A DNA stretch of 34,982 bases, taken from positions 1-34,982 of the forward strand of contig DAHVAR010000229.1 of NCBI GenBank assembly GCA_027314515.1, read 5' to 3'. A program made the position numbers and the translations under genes. The notes below the pieces were generated by a model that was not told where the DNA came from, searched no databases, and saw nothing but the letters and a program-made list of their open reading frames with translations. The DNA is from Actinomycetota bacterium. Its GTDB lineage: Bacteria > Actinomycetota > Actinomycetes > Streptosporangiales > Streptosporangiaceae. Below are positions 5,130-12,299 of the stretch, one piece after another (position 1 is the first letter of the stretch; every line of letters begins with the position of its first letter).

Positions 5130-6248
5130 CTAGCCGCGGCGGACGCGGCGGCGGCGCAGGCCGAAGACCACCAGCAGGACTGCGATAAGCGCCGCGGCAG
5201 CCGGGACGAGGCGCTTGAGCACCGGCAGCCCGGCCACGTCCAGCAGGTCAATCGCGTCGTTGTCGGGTGGCTGCCAGCCGGCCGGCTCCCGCTGGGCCGG
5301 TATCGGCGCGGCAGGCGACTCATGCCGTGCCGGGCGCAGGGGCGTCACCTCGGCCAGATCCCCGTCTGCGGTTTGGTCGGCAGCAGAGGCGTGCCGGCCG
5401 GCCGCCGGGGCAGCGCCGTTCAGATCCGCCTGGTCCGCGCCGGGCTGACCGGCAGCACTAGCCGGACCAGCGGATTGCGGGCTGATCGGGCTGACCGCCT
5501 CCAGCCGCGTGCTGCCGGCGGCTTCCGGCGGCGCCAGGGCCAGCCCGCGATCGGCAAGCCTGGCCTTGATGTCGGCCAGCGAAGCGGGACCAACTCCGTC
5601 GATGGCGAGCAGCTGCTGGCTAGTCCGCCGGGTCAGGTCACCGAGGGTCTGGATGCCGTCCTGGCGCAGACTGCTCCACGCCCTGGCGCTGAGGTTGAGC
5701 ACATCGATCGGCAGCGCCTCGTCTGGCGTGCTGTCGGGCAGGGCGATCACGTTCCCGCCGCCCGGAATTTCACCATCGTCAGGGACATCCGCGGCTAGCG
5801 CGGGCTCGGCCGCCAGCATCGCCGCCAGGTTGTCGGCGAAGATGCCGATCAGCTTCGTGCCAACCTCGACCATCACGCCCCGGCCGAACTGCGCTGGCTT
5901 GCCGGTGACATTCAGTGTCGTGTGCACAGTGACCGTGGTCTGGCCACCAGCGGCGATCAGGTGCGACCGCACGGACGCCGATGCGGTACCCGCGCCGCGG
6001 GTCTCCTTGCCGGACGCTTGCAGGGTGACCACGCGCGCGTCCTGGTCCCGCTCGGTGAACCTGGCAGTCCCGGCGTAGGTCATCGTGATCGGGCCGACCT
6101 TGACCTTGATCTTTCCGGCGATGCTGTCACCTTCGACGGAGTCGAGGGTGGCGCCCGGCATGCAAGGCGCCACCCGCTCGACGTCCAGGAGCACGTCCCA
6201 TGCTCGCTCCACCGGTACCGGGACCGAGAATGTGTGCTCGAGCTCCAT
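5130..6248 (-). CDS. CoxG-like SRPBCC protein fused to an RNAP alpha-CTD-like domain and membrane anchor
   Basis: This 372-residue protein has three parts. Residues 1-147 are a CoxG/SRPBCC domain (MELEHTFSVPVPVERAWDVL at the start, CMPGATL at 29-35, then TTLNVTGKPAQFGRGVM). Residues 179-238 closely resemble the C-terminal domain of the RNA polymerase alpha subunit (PIDVLNLSARAWSSLRQDGI, TLGDL, then DGVGPASLADIKARLADRGL). The position of the DNA-contacting Arg265 of E. coli alpha is an arginine here (R189). A low-complexity Ala/Pro linker follows, then a hydrophobic helix at about 346-363 and a terminal RRRRVRRG. CoxG proteins associate with CO-dehydrogenase-type enzymes at the membrane and are reported to handle menaquinone. 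The gene starts 3 bp after the coxM stop. Typical CoxG proteins are much shorter and lack the alpha-CTD-like part. Whether that domain binds DNA or protein is unknown. Confidence 0.85.
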   Translation of the reverse strand: MELEHTFSVPVPVERAWDVLLDVERVAPCMPGATLDSVEGDSIAGKIKVKVGPITMTYAGTARFTERDQDARVVTLQASGKETRGAGTASASVRSHLIAAGGQTTVTVHTTLNVTGKPAQFGRGVMVEVGTKLIGIFADNLAAMLAAEPALAADVPDDGEIPGGGNVIALPDSTPDEALPIDVLNLSARAWSSLRQDGIQTLGDLTRRTSQQLLAIDGVGPASLADIKARLADRGLALAPPEAAGSTRLEAVSPISPQSAGPASAAGQPGADQADLNGAAPAAGRHASAADQTADGDLAEVTPLRPARHESPAAPIPAQREPAGWQPPDNDAIDLLDVAGLPVLKRLVPAAAALIAVLLVVFGLRRRRVRRG

Positions 6249-6251
6249 GTA

Positions 6252-7109
6252 TCAGACTCCTGCCGCTGCCTCCAGAGCGCGCCCGGTCAGCACCCGCGCC
6301 AGATGGCGCCGGTAGTCCGGCGCTCCGTGCAGGTCCGCAGGCGGCTGCGTTCCCTCGTCCGCACCCGCGGCCGCTTCCCGCAGCGCCTCGGGGCTAGCCT
6401 GCGCCCCGGCAGCGGCCGTCTCGACGGCCGCCGCCCGGATCGGCACCGAGCCCATGTTGGTTAGGCCGACCCTTGCCTCGGCCACGTGGCCGTCGGAGCG
6501 CCGCACCAGCGCCGCGACGCCGACGATCGCCCACGCCTGCGCGGTCCGGTGGAACTTCTCATAACGATATCCCCAGTCGGCACCGAGCTTGGGCACCCGG
6601 ATGCCGGTGAGTATCTCGCCGGGCGCGAGCGCCGTGGTCAGGTAGTCGACAAAGAACTCGCCTGCCGGAATCTCCCTGCCGCCCGCAGGACCCGTGGCGA
6701 TCATGGTCGCGTCCAGCGCCAGCACCACCGCGGGCAGGTCACCGGCCGGGTCAGCATGCGCGATCGAGCCGCCGAGCGTGCCGCGATGCCGGACGGCCGG
6801 GTCGGCGACCGTGCCGGCCGCCTGTGCGAGCAGCCCGCAATGCTCGGTGATCAGCGGATCGTGCACGAGCTGGTAGTGCGTGGTCCGGGCGCCGATCAGC
6901 AGGTGGTCACCGTCATCGGTGACACCGCACAACTCGTCCAGGCCACCGATATCCACCAATAGCTCCGGGTACGCCAGCCGCAGCCGCAGCAGCGGCAGCA
7001 GGCTCTGCCCGCCCGCGATTACCTTGGCGTCCTCGCCACCGCCGGCCAGGGCGCTTACCGCATCGCCGACGGACGACGGACGGACATAGTCGAACTTGGC
7101 CGGGATCAT
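6252..7109 (-). CDS. coxM: CO dehydrogenase-type medium (FAD-binding) subunit
   Basis: This 285-residue FAD-binding subunit of a molybdenum hydroxylase begins [11 protein letters not shown]. It has both flavin-binding signatures: AGGQSLLP, and TLGGSIAHADP near the middle. It passes electrons from the 2Fe-2S subunit to FAD and on to an acceptor. The start ATG at 7107-7109 overlaps the coxL stop as ATGA, so the two are translationally coupled; an upstream in-frame extension to 7208 lies within coxL and was rejected. The gene order S-L-M fits form II (BMS-type) clusters. Confidence 0.9.
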   Translation of the reverse strand: MIPAKFDYVRPSSVGDAVSALAGGGEDAKVIAGGQSLLPLLRLRLAYPELLVDIGGLDELCGVTDDGDHLLIGARTTHYQLVHDPLITEHCGLLAQAAGTVADPAVRHRGTLGGSIAHADPAGDLPAVVLALDATMIATGPAGGREIPAGEFFVDYLTTALAPGEILTGIRVPKLGADWGYRYEKFHRTAQAWAIVGVAALVRRSDGHVAEARVGLTNMGSVPIRAAAVETAAAGAQASPEALREAAAGADEGTQPPADLHGAPDYRRHLARVLTGRALEAAAGV

Positions 7110-9511
7110 GCCATGCCTCCGCTCTGCTCGCTCCCCTGTGCTGGCTGACCCTGTGCTGGCTGACCATGGGCTGCCTGGATCGCCCGCCAGACTCGCTCCG
7201 GCGTGCACGGCATAGTGACGTCCTGGACGCCAAGCGGCCGGAGCGCGTCCACGATCGCGTTGACCACGGCCGGCGTCGACGCGATCGTGCCCGCCTCGCC
7301 GACGCCCTTGACGCCGAGCCGGTTGCTGGCAGGCGTCGTCGTGCGCTCGGTCCGGTACGACGGGAGGTCGGCGGCCGATGGCACCAGGTAGTCGGCCAGC
7401 GTCGTAGTGACGAGGTTGCCCGCCTCGTCGTAGACGCCCTCCTCGTAGAGCGCCTGGGCGATGCCCTGCGCGATGCCGCCGTGCACCTGCCCCTCCACGA
7501 TCAGCGGGTTCACCACCACGCCGACGTCATCGACGGCAACGTAGCTGCGGATGTGCACGAACCCGGTCTCGGTGTCGACCTCGGTCGCGCACAGGTGCGT
7601 ACCGTGCGGGAAGGAGAAGTTGTCCGGGTCATAGGTGGCGTCGGAGTCCAGCGAGGGCTCGACGCCCTCGGGCAGCGCGTGCGCCGCGAAGGTCGCTAGC
7701 GCGACCTCCTGGATCGTCTTGCTCGCCTCCGGGTCGCCCCTGACCGAGAACCGCCCGGCCGAGAACTCCAGGTCGTCAGCCGACGCTTCCAGCATGGCCG
7801 CGGCAATGATCTTGGCCTTCGCGACCACCTTGTCGCACGCGCTGACCAGGGCCAGGCCGCCAACCGCGAGTGAGCGGGAGCCGTAGGTGTCCATGCCCTT
7901 GGGCGAGACCTGAGTGTCGCCGTGCAGCACCCGGATGTCTTCGAACGGCACCCCGAGCTGGTCGGCCACTATCTGGCTCCAGGCCGTCTCGTGGCCCTGA
8001 CCATGCGCGCTGGACCCGGTGACCACCTCGACCTTGCCGGTGGGCAGCATCCGGATCGCCGCGTGCTCCCAGCCGCCCGCGCCGTAGGAGAGCGAGCCGA
8101 GCACCCGGGAGGGGGCCAGGCCGCACATCTCGGTGAAGGTGGAGATGCCGATCCCGAGCCGCACCTTGTCGCCGCGCTCGTTGCGCAGCCGCTGCTCCGC
8201 ACGCAGCCCGTCGTAGTCGAACAGCTCTCTGGCCTTGGCCGTGGCCGCCTCGTAGTTGCCCGAGTCGTAGGTCAGCCCGCAGATGGTCGTGTACGGGAAT
8301 TCCTCGTGCTTGATCCAGTTCCGCTCGCGCAACTCCAGCGGCTCGATGCCGAGCTCGGCCGCGAGTTCGTCCATGATGCGCTCGATCGCGAACGTCGCTT
8401 CCGGCCGGCCCGCGCCGCGATAGGCGTCGGTCGGCATCTTGGTGCTGAAGACCCCGGTGCACTTGAACGAGTACGCGTCCATCTTGTAGATGGCCGGGAA
8501 CATGAACGCGCCCAGGAGCGGCACGCCGGGCGTGACCAGCATCAGGTACGCGCCCATGTCGGCGAGCAGGTCAACGGACAGACCGCGGATCCGGCCGTCG
8601 GCTTCCGCGGCGATCTTGATCTGCTGCCACTGGTCCCGGCCGTGGTGCACGGTCAGGTTGCCCTCGGTGCGGGTCTCGGCCCACTTCACCGGCTTGCCGA
8701 TCTTGCGGCCGATCAGCACCGCGAGCACTTCCTCGGCGGTCACCTGGAGCTTGGAACCGAAGCCACCGCCCACGTCGGGGGCGATAACCCGCACGTTCTG
8801 CTCGGGTATGCCGAAGAACGCCGACAGCGCGAACCGCAGTACGTGCGGAATCTGCGTGGCCGACCACAGCGTGACCTCGTCGCCAACCCACTGCGCTACC
8901 ACCGCGCGCGGCTCCATCGCGCACGGGATCAGCCGCTGCTGCCGGTACGTCCGCTCCAGCACGACCGGCGCATCGCTGAAGGCCGCGTCCACGTCACCGT
9001 TGGCGAAGACCCATTCATAACTCTTGTTGCCGGCCTCGTGCACCTTCGGCGAGCCCGGATCGAGCGCTGTGCGGATATCCAGCACCGGGGGCAGCGGCTC
9101 GTAGTCCACGTCGATCGAGGCCAGTGCGTCAGCCGCGGCGTACCTGTCGCGCGCCACCACGACCGCGACTGCCTCGCCGACGTAGCGAACCTCGTCGACG
9201 GCCATCGGCGGGTGCGGCGGGATGACGATGTCCGGGGTCACCGGCCACGCGCATGGCAGGCTGCCCTGCTCGGCGGCGAAATCGGCACCGGAGAAAGCGG
9301 CGATCACGCCGGGCTGGCCGAGCGCACCGCTGACGTCCACCCTGGTGATCTTCGCGTGCGCGTACGGGCTGCGCAGGAACGCCAGGTGCAGCATTCCGGT
9401 CAGCTTGATGTTGTCCGTCCAGTTGGTCTGGCCGGTGAGCAGCTTGGCGTCTTCCTTGCGGAGCCTCGCCTTGCCGAGTTCGGCGGTCGGCGCGTCGACT
9501 GTCGCGGTCAC
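7106..9511 (-). CDS. coxL: CO dehydrogenase-type large subunit, form II signature (molybdopterin)
   Basis: This 801-residue molybdopterin-binding catalytic subunit of the xanthine oxidase family carries DVGGGFGSK (about 246-254), the active-site loop AYRGAGR (363-369), and the catalytic-glutamate region [10 protein letters not shown] near the C-terminus. AYRGAGR is the form II signature; proven form I CO dehydrogenases carry AYXCSFR. CO oxidation is therefore not established, and an aldehyde or other hydroxylase substrate is possible. The start is GTG 9511, overlapping the coxS stop as GTGA. A longer reading to 9574 would lie inside coxS. The C-terminal tail holds a duplicated GQPAQ encoded by a 15-bp direct repeat (about 7136-7165). 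Confidence 0.9.
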
Positions 9512-9975
9512 TGGGTCACCCCCGCCTCCGCCGCGCGCTTGACGGCGCGGACGATGTTCTCGTAGCCGGTGCACCGGCAGAGGTTGCCCTCCAGGCCGTC
9601 CCGGATCTCCTCCTCGGTCGGATGCGGGTTATCGCGGAGCAAGTCCGTGGTCGCCATGATCATGCCGGGCGTGCAGTACCCGCACTGCAGAGCGTGCTCC
9701 TCGTGGAAGGCTCGCTGCACCGGATGCAGCTCGCCGTTTGCCAGGCCTTCAATGGTCGTCACGTCGGACCCGTCTGCCTGCACCGCCAGAACTGAGCAGC
9801 TCTTGACCGATTGCCCGTCCATCAGGACCGTGCACGCACCACAGTTCGAGGTGTCGCAGCCAATCGGCGTACCGGTCTTGCCGATGACTTCCCTGAGATA
9901 ATGGACGAGCAGCAAGCGAGGTTCGACTTGGTCGACGTACTTAACGCCGTCAACCGTGACGGTGATGTGCGTCAT
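9508..9975 (-). CDS. coxS: CO dehydrogenase-type small (2Fe-2S) subunit
   Basis: This 155-residue iron-sulfur subunit carries two 2Fe-2S clusters. The plant-ferredoxin-type set is C40, C45, C48 and C60 (CDTSNCGAC, then SC). The C-terminal helical domain has C98, C101, C133 and C135 (CGYC, then NLCRCTGY). It relays electrons from molybdopterin to FAD. The start [10 protein letters not shown] at ATG 9973-9975 is chosen because GGAGGTG lies about 8-9 bases upstream; the upstream in-frame Met at 10017 has no support. It is the first gene of the S-L-M-G operon. The 9976-10184 leader should hold the promoter, but no clear -35/-10 pair was found. Confidence 0.92.
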
Positions 9976-10184
9976 TCGCTGACACCTCCGGGGACATGGC
10001 AGATGCGCCTTAGCCAAACCTAGGTCGGCGGAACGCGCCGCACCAGTCCCTCGTGTCGCAATTAACGAGTTACGTGATGCGAAGTCACCGATAACCGGCC
10101 CGCTTGGCGCTGCGAGGCTCCGCCGGAAGGAACTTTACCGCCGGGAACGCGCGGTCTCGGCTGCCGGCTTGCCGCCGCGCGGCG

Positions 10185-10916
10185 TTATCCGGTCTGCAGG
10201 ACCTGAAATGCCTCCGCAAGCCGGCCGTCGGGCAGCCCGGCTTGCGCTGCGGCCCGGCTCAGCCAGCCGCGCAGGAAATCCTCCAGCCCGTCCGGGTCGC
10301 TGATCTGGCTGACGTGACAGCGCAGCGCTGCTACCTTCCGCGCGAAGGTGTCGGTGATGTCGACGTAAGTCGTTGGCGCCGGGCTGCCGGCAATCCAGAC
10401 CTCGCGCACGGTCCACGGCTCGAGCTTCTCCTCGGCCAGCAGTTCCGGAAAGGCGAACGGGTTGCGGGAGTCCGGGTAGACAGCGTCCAGGGCAGCCGAG
10501 CCTGCGGCCCGGTGATCGGGGTGGCTAGCGCCCGTGCGGGCGTAATTGCGTTCCGGTGACTGGCATACGACCCGGTCCGGGCGCAGCAGCCTGATGACCC
10601 TTGCGAGGTCACGGCGCAGCCCCATCGTGGCCTCGACGCGGCCATCCGGGTAGCCAAGGAAGTGCAGGTCATGCACGCCCACCTGCTTGGCGGCCGCAGT
10701 CTGCTCTGCCTGCCTGACCGCCGCCATCTCGGTGCGGGACACTGCCGGGTCGCTGCCCCCGGCCTCGCCGTCGGTGACAATGCAGTAAGTCACCTCGAGC
10801 CCGGCGTCGGTCCACTGCGCGATCGTGCCCGCTGCGCCGAAGTCAACGTCGTCCGGGTGTGCCGTTATTACCAGGACGCGGGCAACCTTCTGATCCTCAG
10901 CCACCTTCTGCTCCAT
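10185..10916 (-). CDS. PIG-L family N-acetyl-sugar deacetylase-like protein
   Basis: This 243-residue member of the PIG-L/LmbE zinc-hydrolase family has the metal-binding AHPDD motif near the N-terminus (residues 19-23, then VDFGAAG) and a second histidine cluster, SHPDHRAAG. Relatives include MshB and Mca of mycothiol metabolism and other N-acetylglucosaminyl deacetylases. The sequence does not decide which; it is shorter than typical MshB or Mca (about 290-300 residues). It is divergent from kynureninase with a 111-bp gap. The start ATG has only a weak upstream GAAGAA. Confidence 0.85.
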   Translation of the reverse strand: MEQKVAEDQKVARVLVITAHPDDVDFGAAGTIAQWTDAGLEVTYCIVTDGEAGGSDPAVSRTEMAAVRQAEQTAAAKQVGVHDLHFLGYPDGRVEATMGLRRDLARVIRLLRPDRVVCQSPERNYARTGASHPDHRAAGSAALDAVYPDSRNPFAFPELLAEEKLEPWTVREVWIAGSPAPTTYVDITDTFARKVAALRCHVSQISDPDGLEDFLRGWLSRAAAQAGLPDGRLAEAFQVLQTG

Positions 10917-11027
10917 CTGTTCTTCGGATACGGTCCGATCCTAAGGTGGCCCTCCCGCCTGGCAGCGTGCTGGTGTTACCCGGAGGCTGAGCCGGGTACC
11001 GGGTGATCTGTCAGGCACTCAGTTAGG

Positions 11028-12299
11028 GTGGAAGCTGTGACGACTTTCTCGGCAGATCGGTCATATGCGCAGGTATTGGACGCCGCGGATCAGCTTGCGC
11101 CGTTCCGAGACAGGTTCGTCCGGCACGACCGGGAACTGATCTACCTGGACGGCAACTCCCTTGGTCCGCTGCCAGTGCGGACCCAGGCGCGGATCGCCGA
11201 GGTTGTCGACCAGGACTGGGGCGTTGGGCTGGTGCGGTCCTGGGACAAGTGGATCCAGCTGCCCCGCCAGGCTGGCGACATGCTGGGCGAGCACCTCGTC
11301 GGCGCCGCGCCCGGCCAGGTGATCGTCTGCGACTGCGTCACCGTCAACCTGTACAAGCTGGCGTGGGCCGCCGTGGACGCACGGCCGGGCCGGGACGTCG
11401 TCATCACCGACGACGACAATTTCCCGACGGACAGGTACGTGCTCCAGGGCATGGCCGCTCAGCGCGGCTGCGAGTTGCGCGTGATCCATACCGACATGGA
11501 TCACGGGATCAGCGAGGAGGCACTCGCCGAGGCCCTGGATGACCGCGTCGCCCTGGTCGCCCTGTCCCATGTCGCTTATCGCAGCGGCGGACTTGCCGAC
11601 ATGACCAAGCTCACCGATCTGATCCACCGGGCTGGCGCCCTGGTGCTCTGGGACTTGTGTCACTCGGTCGGTTCGGTCCCGGTCGAACTGGACGCATCCG
11701 GCGCTGACCTCGCCGTCGGCTGTACCTATAAGTACGTGAATGCCGGACCCGGCGCGCCCGGCTTTCTCTATGTGCGCGAGGACCTGCAGTCGCTGCTGCG
11801 CCAGCCCATCTGGGGCTGGTTCGGCCAGCATGACCAGTTCGCCATGGGCCCGCGCTATGACCCGGCGCCCGGCATCGACTCGTTCCTCACCGGCACTCCG
11901 AACATCATCGGGTCGGTGGCAGTCGAGGAAGGCGCCCGGTTGCTTGGCGAAGCCGGCCTTGCTGCCTTGCGGGCCAAGAGCATCGACCTGACCAGCTACC
12001 TGATCGCGCTTGCCGACGAATGGCTGATATCACTCGGGTTCATGATCGCCTCACCACGCGATGCGGCGCGGCGCGGCGGTCACGTCACCCTGCGCCACGA
12101 CGATGCCTGGCCCATCAGCCAGGCACTGATCAGGGCCGACGTGGTGGGCGATTACCGGACGCCCGACCGGCTGCGGCTCGCGCCCGTTCCCCTCACCACG
12201 AGCTTCACCGAAGTATTCGACGCCATGGACCGCCTGCGTGAGATCGCGGCCAGCAAGTCCTACGCCGACGTCCCGCTCGAGCAGCCCAGGGTCACCTGA
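11028..12299 (+). CDS. kynU: Kynureninase
   Basis: This PLP-dependent hydrolase of about 423 residues cleaves kynurenine to anthranilate and alanine in tryptophan catabolism. Recognisable segments are YLDGNSLGPLP near the N-terminus, the PLP-phosphate region DDDNFPTDRY, the Asp in LWDLCHSVGSVPV, the Schiff-base lysine in CTYKYVNAGPGAPGF (K235), and GTPNIIG. Two GTG starts are possible (11028 and 11037); GGGTGGA at 11026-11032 would suit 11037. No tryptophan dioxygenase or formamidase gene is adjacent, so its pathway partners lie elsewhere. It is followed by a 19-bp tandem repeat. Confidence 0.93.
   Translation: MEAVTTFSADRSYAQVLDAADQLAPFRDRFVRHDRELIYLDGNSLGPLPVRTQARIAEVVDQDWGVGLVRSWDKWIQLPRQAGDMLGEHLVGAAPGQVIVCDCVTVNLYKLAWAAVDARPGRDVVITDDDNFPTDRYVLQGMAAQRGCELRVIHTDMDHGISEEALAEALDDRVALVALSHVAYRSGGLADMTKLTDLIHRAGALVLWDLCHSVGSVPVELDASGADLAVGCTYKYVNAGPGAPGFLYVREDLQSLLRQPIWGWFGQHDQFAMGPRYDPAPGIDSFLTGTPNIIGSVAVEEGARLLGEAGLAALRAKSIDLTSYLIALADEWLISLGFMIASPRDAARRGGHVTLRHDDAWPISQALIRADVVGDYRTPDRLRLAPVPLTTSFTEVFDAMDRLREIAASKSYADVPLEQPRVT

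Follow-up and report, generated by a model that had tools for sequence, protein, structure and literature searches.

A CoxG protein with an additional domain

Does the CoxG protein encoded in the window, i.e., the whole stretch of 34,982 nucleotides analysed here, really contain a domain of RNA polymerase, and what could such a domain be doing in a protein of energy metabolism? The open reading frame lies on the minus strand, with its ATG at 6248 and its stop codon at 5132-5130, and starts three bases past the frame of coxM (Table 1).

Table 1. Features of the fused coxG gene, its product and the neighbouring genes in the window.
Feature	Positions	Strand	Basis or remark
coxG-alphaCTD gene, 372 aa	5130..6248	minus	Open reading frame; COXG and RNA_pol_A_CTD both above Pfam cut-offs
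CoxG SRPBCC (START/Bet v 1-like) domain, residues 1-147	5808..6248	minus	Pfam COXG; PDB 8uds match
Variable linker 1, residues 148-179	5712..5807	minus	pLDDT <50 at 150-173; 16-56 residues in fused proteins (n=18)
RNA polymerase alpha-CTD domain, residues 180-238	5535..5711	minus	Pfam, PDB sequence search, alignment, domain model
Codon of R189 (E. coli alpha R265)	5682..5684	minus	Kept in 18/18 fused proteins
Hairpin loop G220-P221-A222-S223 (G296-K297-K298-S299)	5580..5591	minus	K298 replaced in 17/18
Variable linker 2, residues 239-330	5259..5534	minus	pLDDT <50 at 243-302 and 304-329; 52-111 residues in the 17/18 fused proteins measurable
Conserved juxtamembrane motif DAIDLLDVAGLPVLKR, residues 331-346	5211..5258	minus	Like the motif in unfused CoxG
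Hydrophobic helix 347-364 and arginine-rich tail 365-372	5133..5210	minus	Sequence; model helix 342-371, moderate confidence
coxM, FAD subunit (listed frame; true start maybe further downstream)	6252..7208	minus	Pfam FAD_binding_5, CO_deh_flav_C
coxL, molybdenum subunit, form II motif AYRGAGR (listed frame)	7106..9574	minus	Pfam; motif
coxS, 2Fe-2S subunit	9508..10017	minus	Pfam Fer2_2
PIG-L family deacetylase, next gene upstream, found repeatedly at such loci	10185..10916	minus	Pfam; locus comparison

The N-terminal part is a CoxG SRPBCC domain, as the earlier note had read residues 1-147. Pfam COXG (PF06240) matches residues 7-144 with 56.4 bits (cut-off 22.2), and the best PDB match is CoxG of Mycobacterium smegmatis (8uds, E 3.8e-40). 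In Foldseek, the predicted SRPBCC domain aligns to 8uds with a TM-score of 0.90 of the target and an rmsd of 1.8 Å.

In unfused actinobacterial CoxG proteins the same SRPBCC part is followed by a linker, a DAIDLLDVAGLPVLKR-like motif, a hydrophobic helix and a basic tail. The motif was present in 17 of the 18 measured CoxG without an alpha-CTD and was not found in the remaining one, L011. As these proteins show all the other parts, the alpha-CTD sits inside the linker of what is otherwise a standard actinobacterial CoxG. The C-terminal hydrophobic helix of the earlier note is present, only one residue further on than the positions 346-363 given there, and the predicted helix at 347-364 together with the motif common to unfused CoxG points to a C-terminal membrane anchor. 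Such an anchor is ordinary in actinobacterial CoxG and has to be taken out of what is new about the protein, where the earlier note had placed it. The linker of unfused CoxG measures 20-91 residues in 16 proteins and 205 in one (17 measurable). The longest, in L046 (G187), is repetitive and rich in proline and alanine, and no alpha-CTD was found in it.

The CoxG proteins of M. smegmatis (8uds) and Oligotropha carboxidovorans resemble that of the window in their SRPBCC domain, their C-terminal anchor (8uds title) and a gene beside coxSLM-type genes, but no alpha-CTD is reported for them. The CoxG-like anchors of an archaeal glycerol-3-phosphate dehydrogenase likewise recruit a dehydrogenase, and the available portion of their description (PMC11962113) mentions no extra domain.

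Identity of the second domain

The RNA polymerase alpha-CTD in the window protein is genuine. Pfam RNA_pol_A_CTD (PF03118) matches residues 176-232 with 46.0 bits (cut-off 23.8), and helix-hairpin-helix families gave no Pfam match to the window protein at E values up to 1. Both Pfam domains exceed their cut-offs in all 11 fused proteins scanned, with alpha-CTD scores in the ten relatives ranging from 41.3 bits (L026) to 79.6 bits (L036). Some members do show weak generic helix-hairpin-helix matches, the best being HHH_5 in L034 (E 0.00067, 20.5 bits, cut-off 27), but PF03118 is ahead of the best such family listed by at least 25 bits in 11/11, and a generic helix-hairpin-helix repeat was therefore rejected. 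In NCBIfam the second part comes closest to RpoA models, with scores far short of cut-offs that are set for whole RpoA. In the PDB, the segment matches actinobacterial RNA polymerase alpha subunits by sequence, best of all the alpha subunit of Streptomyces RNA polymerase (E 5e-10).

In the full-length model the SRPBCC domain and the alpha-CTD are confident, and pLDDT falls below 50 across most of both linkers. As a Foldseek search with this model showed SRPBCC-type folds in its best 50 matches, the alpha-CTD was modelled separately (residues 172-243, mean pLDDT 90). With the domain model, E. coli alpha-CTD structures rank first in Foldseek, and VIA-align superimposes it on 1lb2_E with an rmsd of 0.9 Å over 66 residues, 39% identity and a Z of 12.7, although helical domains can often give Z values of less than about 13, and 9.1 was reached by an unrelated Dmc1 chain. 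For a small helical domain Z alone is insufficient, and the assignment is firm because the sequence match joins the fold. The earlier note's reading of residues 179-238 as an alpha-CTD is thus borne out by the Pfam scores as well as by the structural overlay.

The alignment also agrees with the note on single residues: R189, G220 and S223 occupy the positions of E. coli R265, G296 and S299, while N268 and K298 are replaced by S192 and A222. The window protein has no Pfam match to the alpha-NTD family. A separate RpoA with its own CTD is encoded in the same genome, where PF03118 has two matches, RpoA (96.7 bits) and the fused CoxG (49.8 bits). The window protein shares with RpoA the whole fold, 59 residues without a gap, and the equivalents of R265, G296 and S299. 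Unlike in RpoA, the domain belongs to a putatively membrane-anchored metabolic protein without an alpha-NTD, and N268, R293, N294 and K298 are changed in the window protein and in most members.

Distribution of the fusion

A profile search found the fusion in at least 18 of the 200 sampled genomes of the window's family and in at least 7 of the 68 genera among them; all nine sampled genomes of the window's own genus have it. The 18 fused matches comprise 15 that run end to end and three that reach a point past the alpha-CTD, and the domain was confirmed in every one. Besides the window, the architecture thus occurs in at least 17 genomes; the frame is complete in 16 of these and truncated by a contig end in one. 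Scanning one genome per species gave 16 CoxG relatives, eight of them fused. The eight fused named records are metagenome-assembled genomes labelled as Streptosporangiaceae (6), Actinomycetes (1) and Actinobacteria bacterium (1). The proteins of their loci are identical to eight of the 18, so the set consists of 18 distinct proteins and not of 26.

The survey of the class used a single-sequence query and a profile check of 40 long frames obtained with it. CoxG matches were found in 90 of 197 genomes, and past residue 195 of 372 there was no match in these genomes except the window's own. A sensitive profile applied to 82 CoxG loci detected the alpha-CTD in one, the window itself, and in none of the other 81, which are the best-scoring unfused loci and those with long frames, at least two repeating the same place and a few being cut by contig ends where an alpha-CTD could be missed. 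With no fusion in these 81 loci, the idea of a widespread and already annotated CoxG feature was rejected within the sample. In a plasmid collection, 50 records had CoxG matches and none covered 80% of the query. Among the sampled genomes the fusion is seen in one family only. We found no published description of a CoxG/alpha-CTD fusion in searches of open-access PMC papers, and the earlier note had not seen the architecture described either.

Enzyme and gene neighborhood

In 17 of the 18 cases coxM is followed immediately by the fused coxG, the exception being genome G244. In the unfused loci L037-L048 of the same family, which are short stretches, coxG is beside coxM in 8 of 12. AYRGAGR, the motif of form II, is present in the CoxL of the window and of all seven fused loci among eight loci examined; in the CoxL of the unfused L011, neither motif form was matched by the pattern used. 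Form I CO dehydrogenases have the motif (A/S)YRCS(F/L)R, and CO oxidation by form II enzymes is described as unsettled in the part of PMC13240472 available. The form I motif is not found in the window CoxL; the O. carboxidovorans enzyme, by comparison, is a true CO dehydrogenase. The partner of the CO-dehydrogenase type expected in the earlier note does adjoin in the form of coxSLM, but CO dehydrogenase proper is not supported as its identity. In NCBIfam, coxS, coxL and coxM score highest against subunits of glyceraldehyde dehydrogenase, below the cut-offs.

A PIG-L gene is found upstream of coxS in the window, in four of the eight loci L003-L010 and in L151, L152 and L153. In L149 it lies directly upstream of coxG, and the L150 stretch ends in coxL. 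There is a kynureninase gene no more than several kilobases away in the window, L004, L008, L010, L149, L150, L152 and L153, and was not seen in the L151 stretch. The recurrence of both genes (window 10185-12299) is a hint of a possible role for the form II enzyme in the breakdown of amino acids or kynurenine.

In G244 the locus is split. The fused coxG (L149, contig C190) is located between the PIG-L and kynureninase genes without coxSLM, and orthologous coxSLM genes, with a coxL 81-82% identical, are found on another contig (L169, C189) with no coxG in the 16 kb there.

Among the neighbors of fused coxG identified by Pfam there is no clear transcription factor. Directly behind the fused coxG of L008 (L008:7240-9339) we observed a gene for a 700-aa AAA/STAND-type protein, with AAA_16 as its best match just below the cut-off, which could be regulatory. 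In the window, a 321-aa frame (167-1132) has a weak match, below the cut-off, to the REase_MTES_1575 family.

Conservation of the domain and of its DNA face

The alpha-CTD is ungapped over its 59 residues in all 18 fused proteins, between linkers of varying length (Table 1). Across 11 pairs, which are not independent and for which the linker alignments are poor, dN/dS of the domain ranged from 0.07 to 0.52, below 1 in 11/11 and below the value of linker 2 in 10/11. In the closest pair, the window protein and L019, the domain is not lower (0.24, and 0.19 for linker 2). The fusion is real, it is confined to one family among the genomes sampled, and selection maintains the alpha-CTD in CoxG.

Thirteen alignment columns are invariant in the 18 proteins. 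Twelve of them are L, I, G, P, or T, and the equivalent of R265 is the only charged one. The positions that contact DNA are kept to very different degrees, R265 and G296 in all 18, S299 in 17, N268 in 8, N294 in 7, and K298 and R293 in one each; position 302 is acidic in 18/18. R293 is the residue of the local RpoA, and E. coli has P at this position. The DNA-contact set, which as a whole we take to be R265, N268, N294, G296, K298, S299, and E302, reads R, S, G, G, A, S, and D in the window protein, with three of seven residues identical to E. coli. L036, the most RpoA-like member, has all seven as well as R293. Summed over twelve positions that we selected as DNA-facing on the basis of E. coli data, the charge is +3 in 13/13 RpoA and 0 to +2 in the 18 CoxG proteins (0 in the window, +2 in L036). 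Judged by these substitutions, the DNA face of the CoxG alpha-CTD is eroded. For the E. coli domain, an excerpt of PMC7822876 places R265 and N294 in the minor groove and assigns the backbone contacts to K291 and K298, and R265 and N268 are called critical for DNA binding in an excerpt of PMC11434276.

Probable origin of the domain

The alpha-CTD was most likely captured from RpoA. Compared with the RpoA-CTD of the window genome, the 18 CoxG domains show 38-62% identity, with L036 highest. In a tree of alpha-CTDs a single change accounts for the split between CoxG and RpoA (support 69/89; seen in 74% of bootstrap trees). A tree of SRPBCC domains needs two, as L037, L039 and L043, which are unfused, are placed among the fused ones; both trees have many weak branches. 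On these trees a single capture is favoured but not proved. Most CoxG domains have T285, I303, and R310 in common with the E. coli domain, and these residues occur in none of the 13 local RpoA. For this reason the donor is not pinned.

PF03118 also occurs outside RpoA in other small or repeated alpha-CTD-like proteins of the same family of bacteria (L062/L073, L064/L075, L065 and L066), which unlike the window have no SRPBCC frame and no coxS, coxL, coxM or coxG match within their 3.2-kb stretches. L062 and L073 (G279:C8:1132703-1134324) are two frames of 85 and 87 aa with an alpha-CTD only, about 1.4 kb apart; each is 67% identical to the RpoA-CTD of the window genome, and one has glycine at the R265 position. 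L064/L075 (G033:C52:96838-97278) is a 552-aa frame with two alpha-CTD-like repeats and the arginine in both, and in L065 (G007:C7:251722-251883) a frame of 225 aa matches PF03118 with 46.6 bits.

Possible roles of the domain

We propose, and give it about an even chance, that a tail-anchored CoxG acquired an RpoA alpha-CTD within its flexible linker and that the domain now works as a docking module in a membrane tether. There would have been one such capture or a few, all in a single lineage of the Streptosporangiaceae-type family. By analogy with other CoxG proteins, the fused protein would keep the molybdenum hydroxylase CoxSLM at the membrane, on the cytoplasmic side, and may help electrons into the quinone pool. 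The alpha-CTD would hang on the cytosolic side between two flexible arms, in a geometry like that in RNA polymerase, and its R189 face would grip a partner in the cytosol, for which the enzyme or a second CoxG would be the simplest candidates. Most members would have lost DNA binding or would show it in weakened form. We suggest reuse of this face for docking because the backbone contacts are lost while one exposed arginine stays under selection.

The available passages of PMC4240915 and PMC11962113 describe CoxG as recruiting its dehydrogenase to the membrane. Menaquinone binding and a mediating role in electron transfer are also reported for CoxG (Kropp et al., 2025, cited by PMC13240472 in its accessible part), but for the archaeal dehydrogenase the text available from PMC11962113 has it needed for anchoring only and not for electron transfer, which counts against the electron-transfer step. 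Against docking as such, the invariant arginine corresponds to the key DNA-binding residue R265, the complete contact set of L036 is not predicted by pure docking, and it is L036 that is encoded apart from coxSLM in G244. The erosion of the DNA face could also reflect relaxed constraint. The earlier note had offered either docking or a link between substrate oxidation and gene expression; docking fits the eroded face better, and the kept arginine is the single argument left to the expression link as it was put there.

In a broader form, such a link would have the domain bind an activator, sigma region 4, or DNA, and thereby either pass the state of the enzyme's quinone or substrate on to gene expression or tie a membrane patch to the nucleoid. 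We consider this unlikely. It would account for the retention of R265, G296, S299 and the acidic position 302, for the full set of L036, and for the weak helix-hairpin-helix matches such as HHH_5 in L034, but R293 is lost in 17/18, as is K298, which in E. coli is one of the residues at the DNA backbone (PMC7822876, in part), and the DNA-facing charge of the window protein is 0 against +3 in RpoA. The neighbors identified by Pfam, with one AAA/STAND-type protein behind the L008 coxG, do not speak for it either. The specific version, in which the SRPBCC domain senses electron flow into the quinone pool and the CoxG-borne alpha-CTD, as a part of RNA polymerase fixed at the membrane, changes gene expression by binding DNA, sigma or an activator, is to our minds decidedly unlikely. 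Binding of this kind is possible above all for L036.

It is also doubtful that the domain merely lengthens or stiffens the linker as a folded bead, selected for solubility and fold. The host linker varies in length without the domain too, and all but one of the invariant columns are L, I, G, P, or T. The same fold is kept in 18/18 while the linkers vary freely, however, and one of the invariant residues is an arginine that is not known to be needed for folding of the alpha-CTD. That R189 binds RNA or anionic lipid near the membrane, unrelated to transcription, would suit an invariant arginine on a face that probably lies near the bilayer, but this seems very improbable for a face with a net charge of only 0 to +2, and nothing else indicates lipid. 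An artefact of assembly or gene calling, to which the metagenomic source of all eight named fused records might lead, has negligible probability given a single frame free of internal stop codons in 18 genomes from 7 genera (one cut by a contig end) and a dN/dS of the domain below 1 in every pair.

Implications

The fusion is a novel variant of CoxG and not a novel kind of system. In it, a domain of RNA polymerase that is nearly frozen in RpoA has been captured by a membrane protein of energy metabolism and then altered residue by residue. The family holds a graded series, from the full DNA-contact set to little beyond the arginine, which lets the loss or change of DNA binding be tested, and the fusion provides a handle on the docking partners of the poorly understood form II enzymes.
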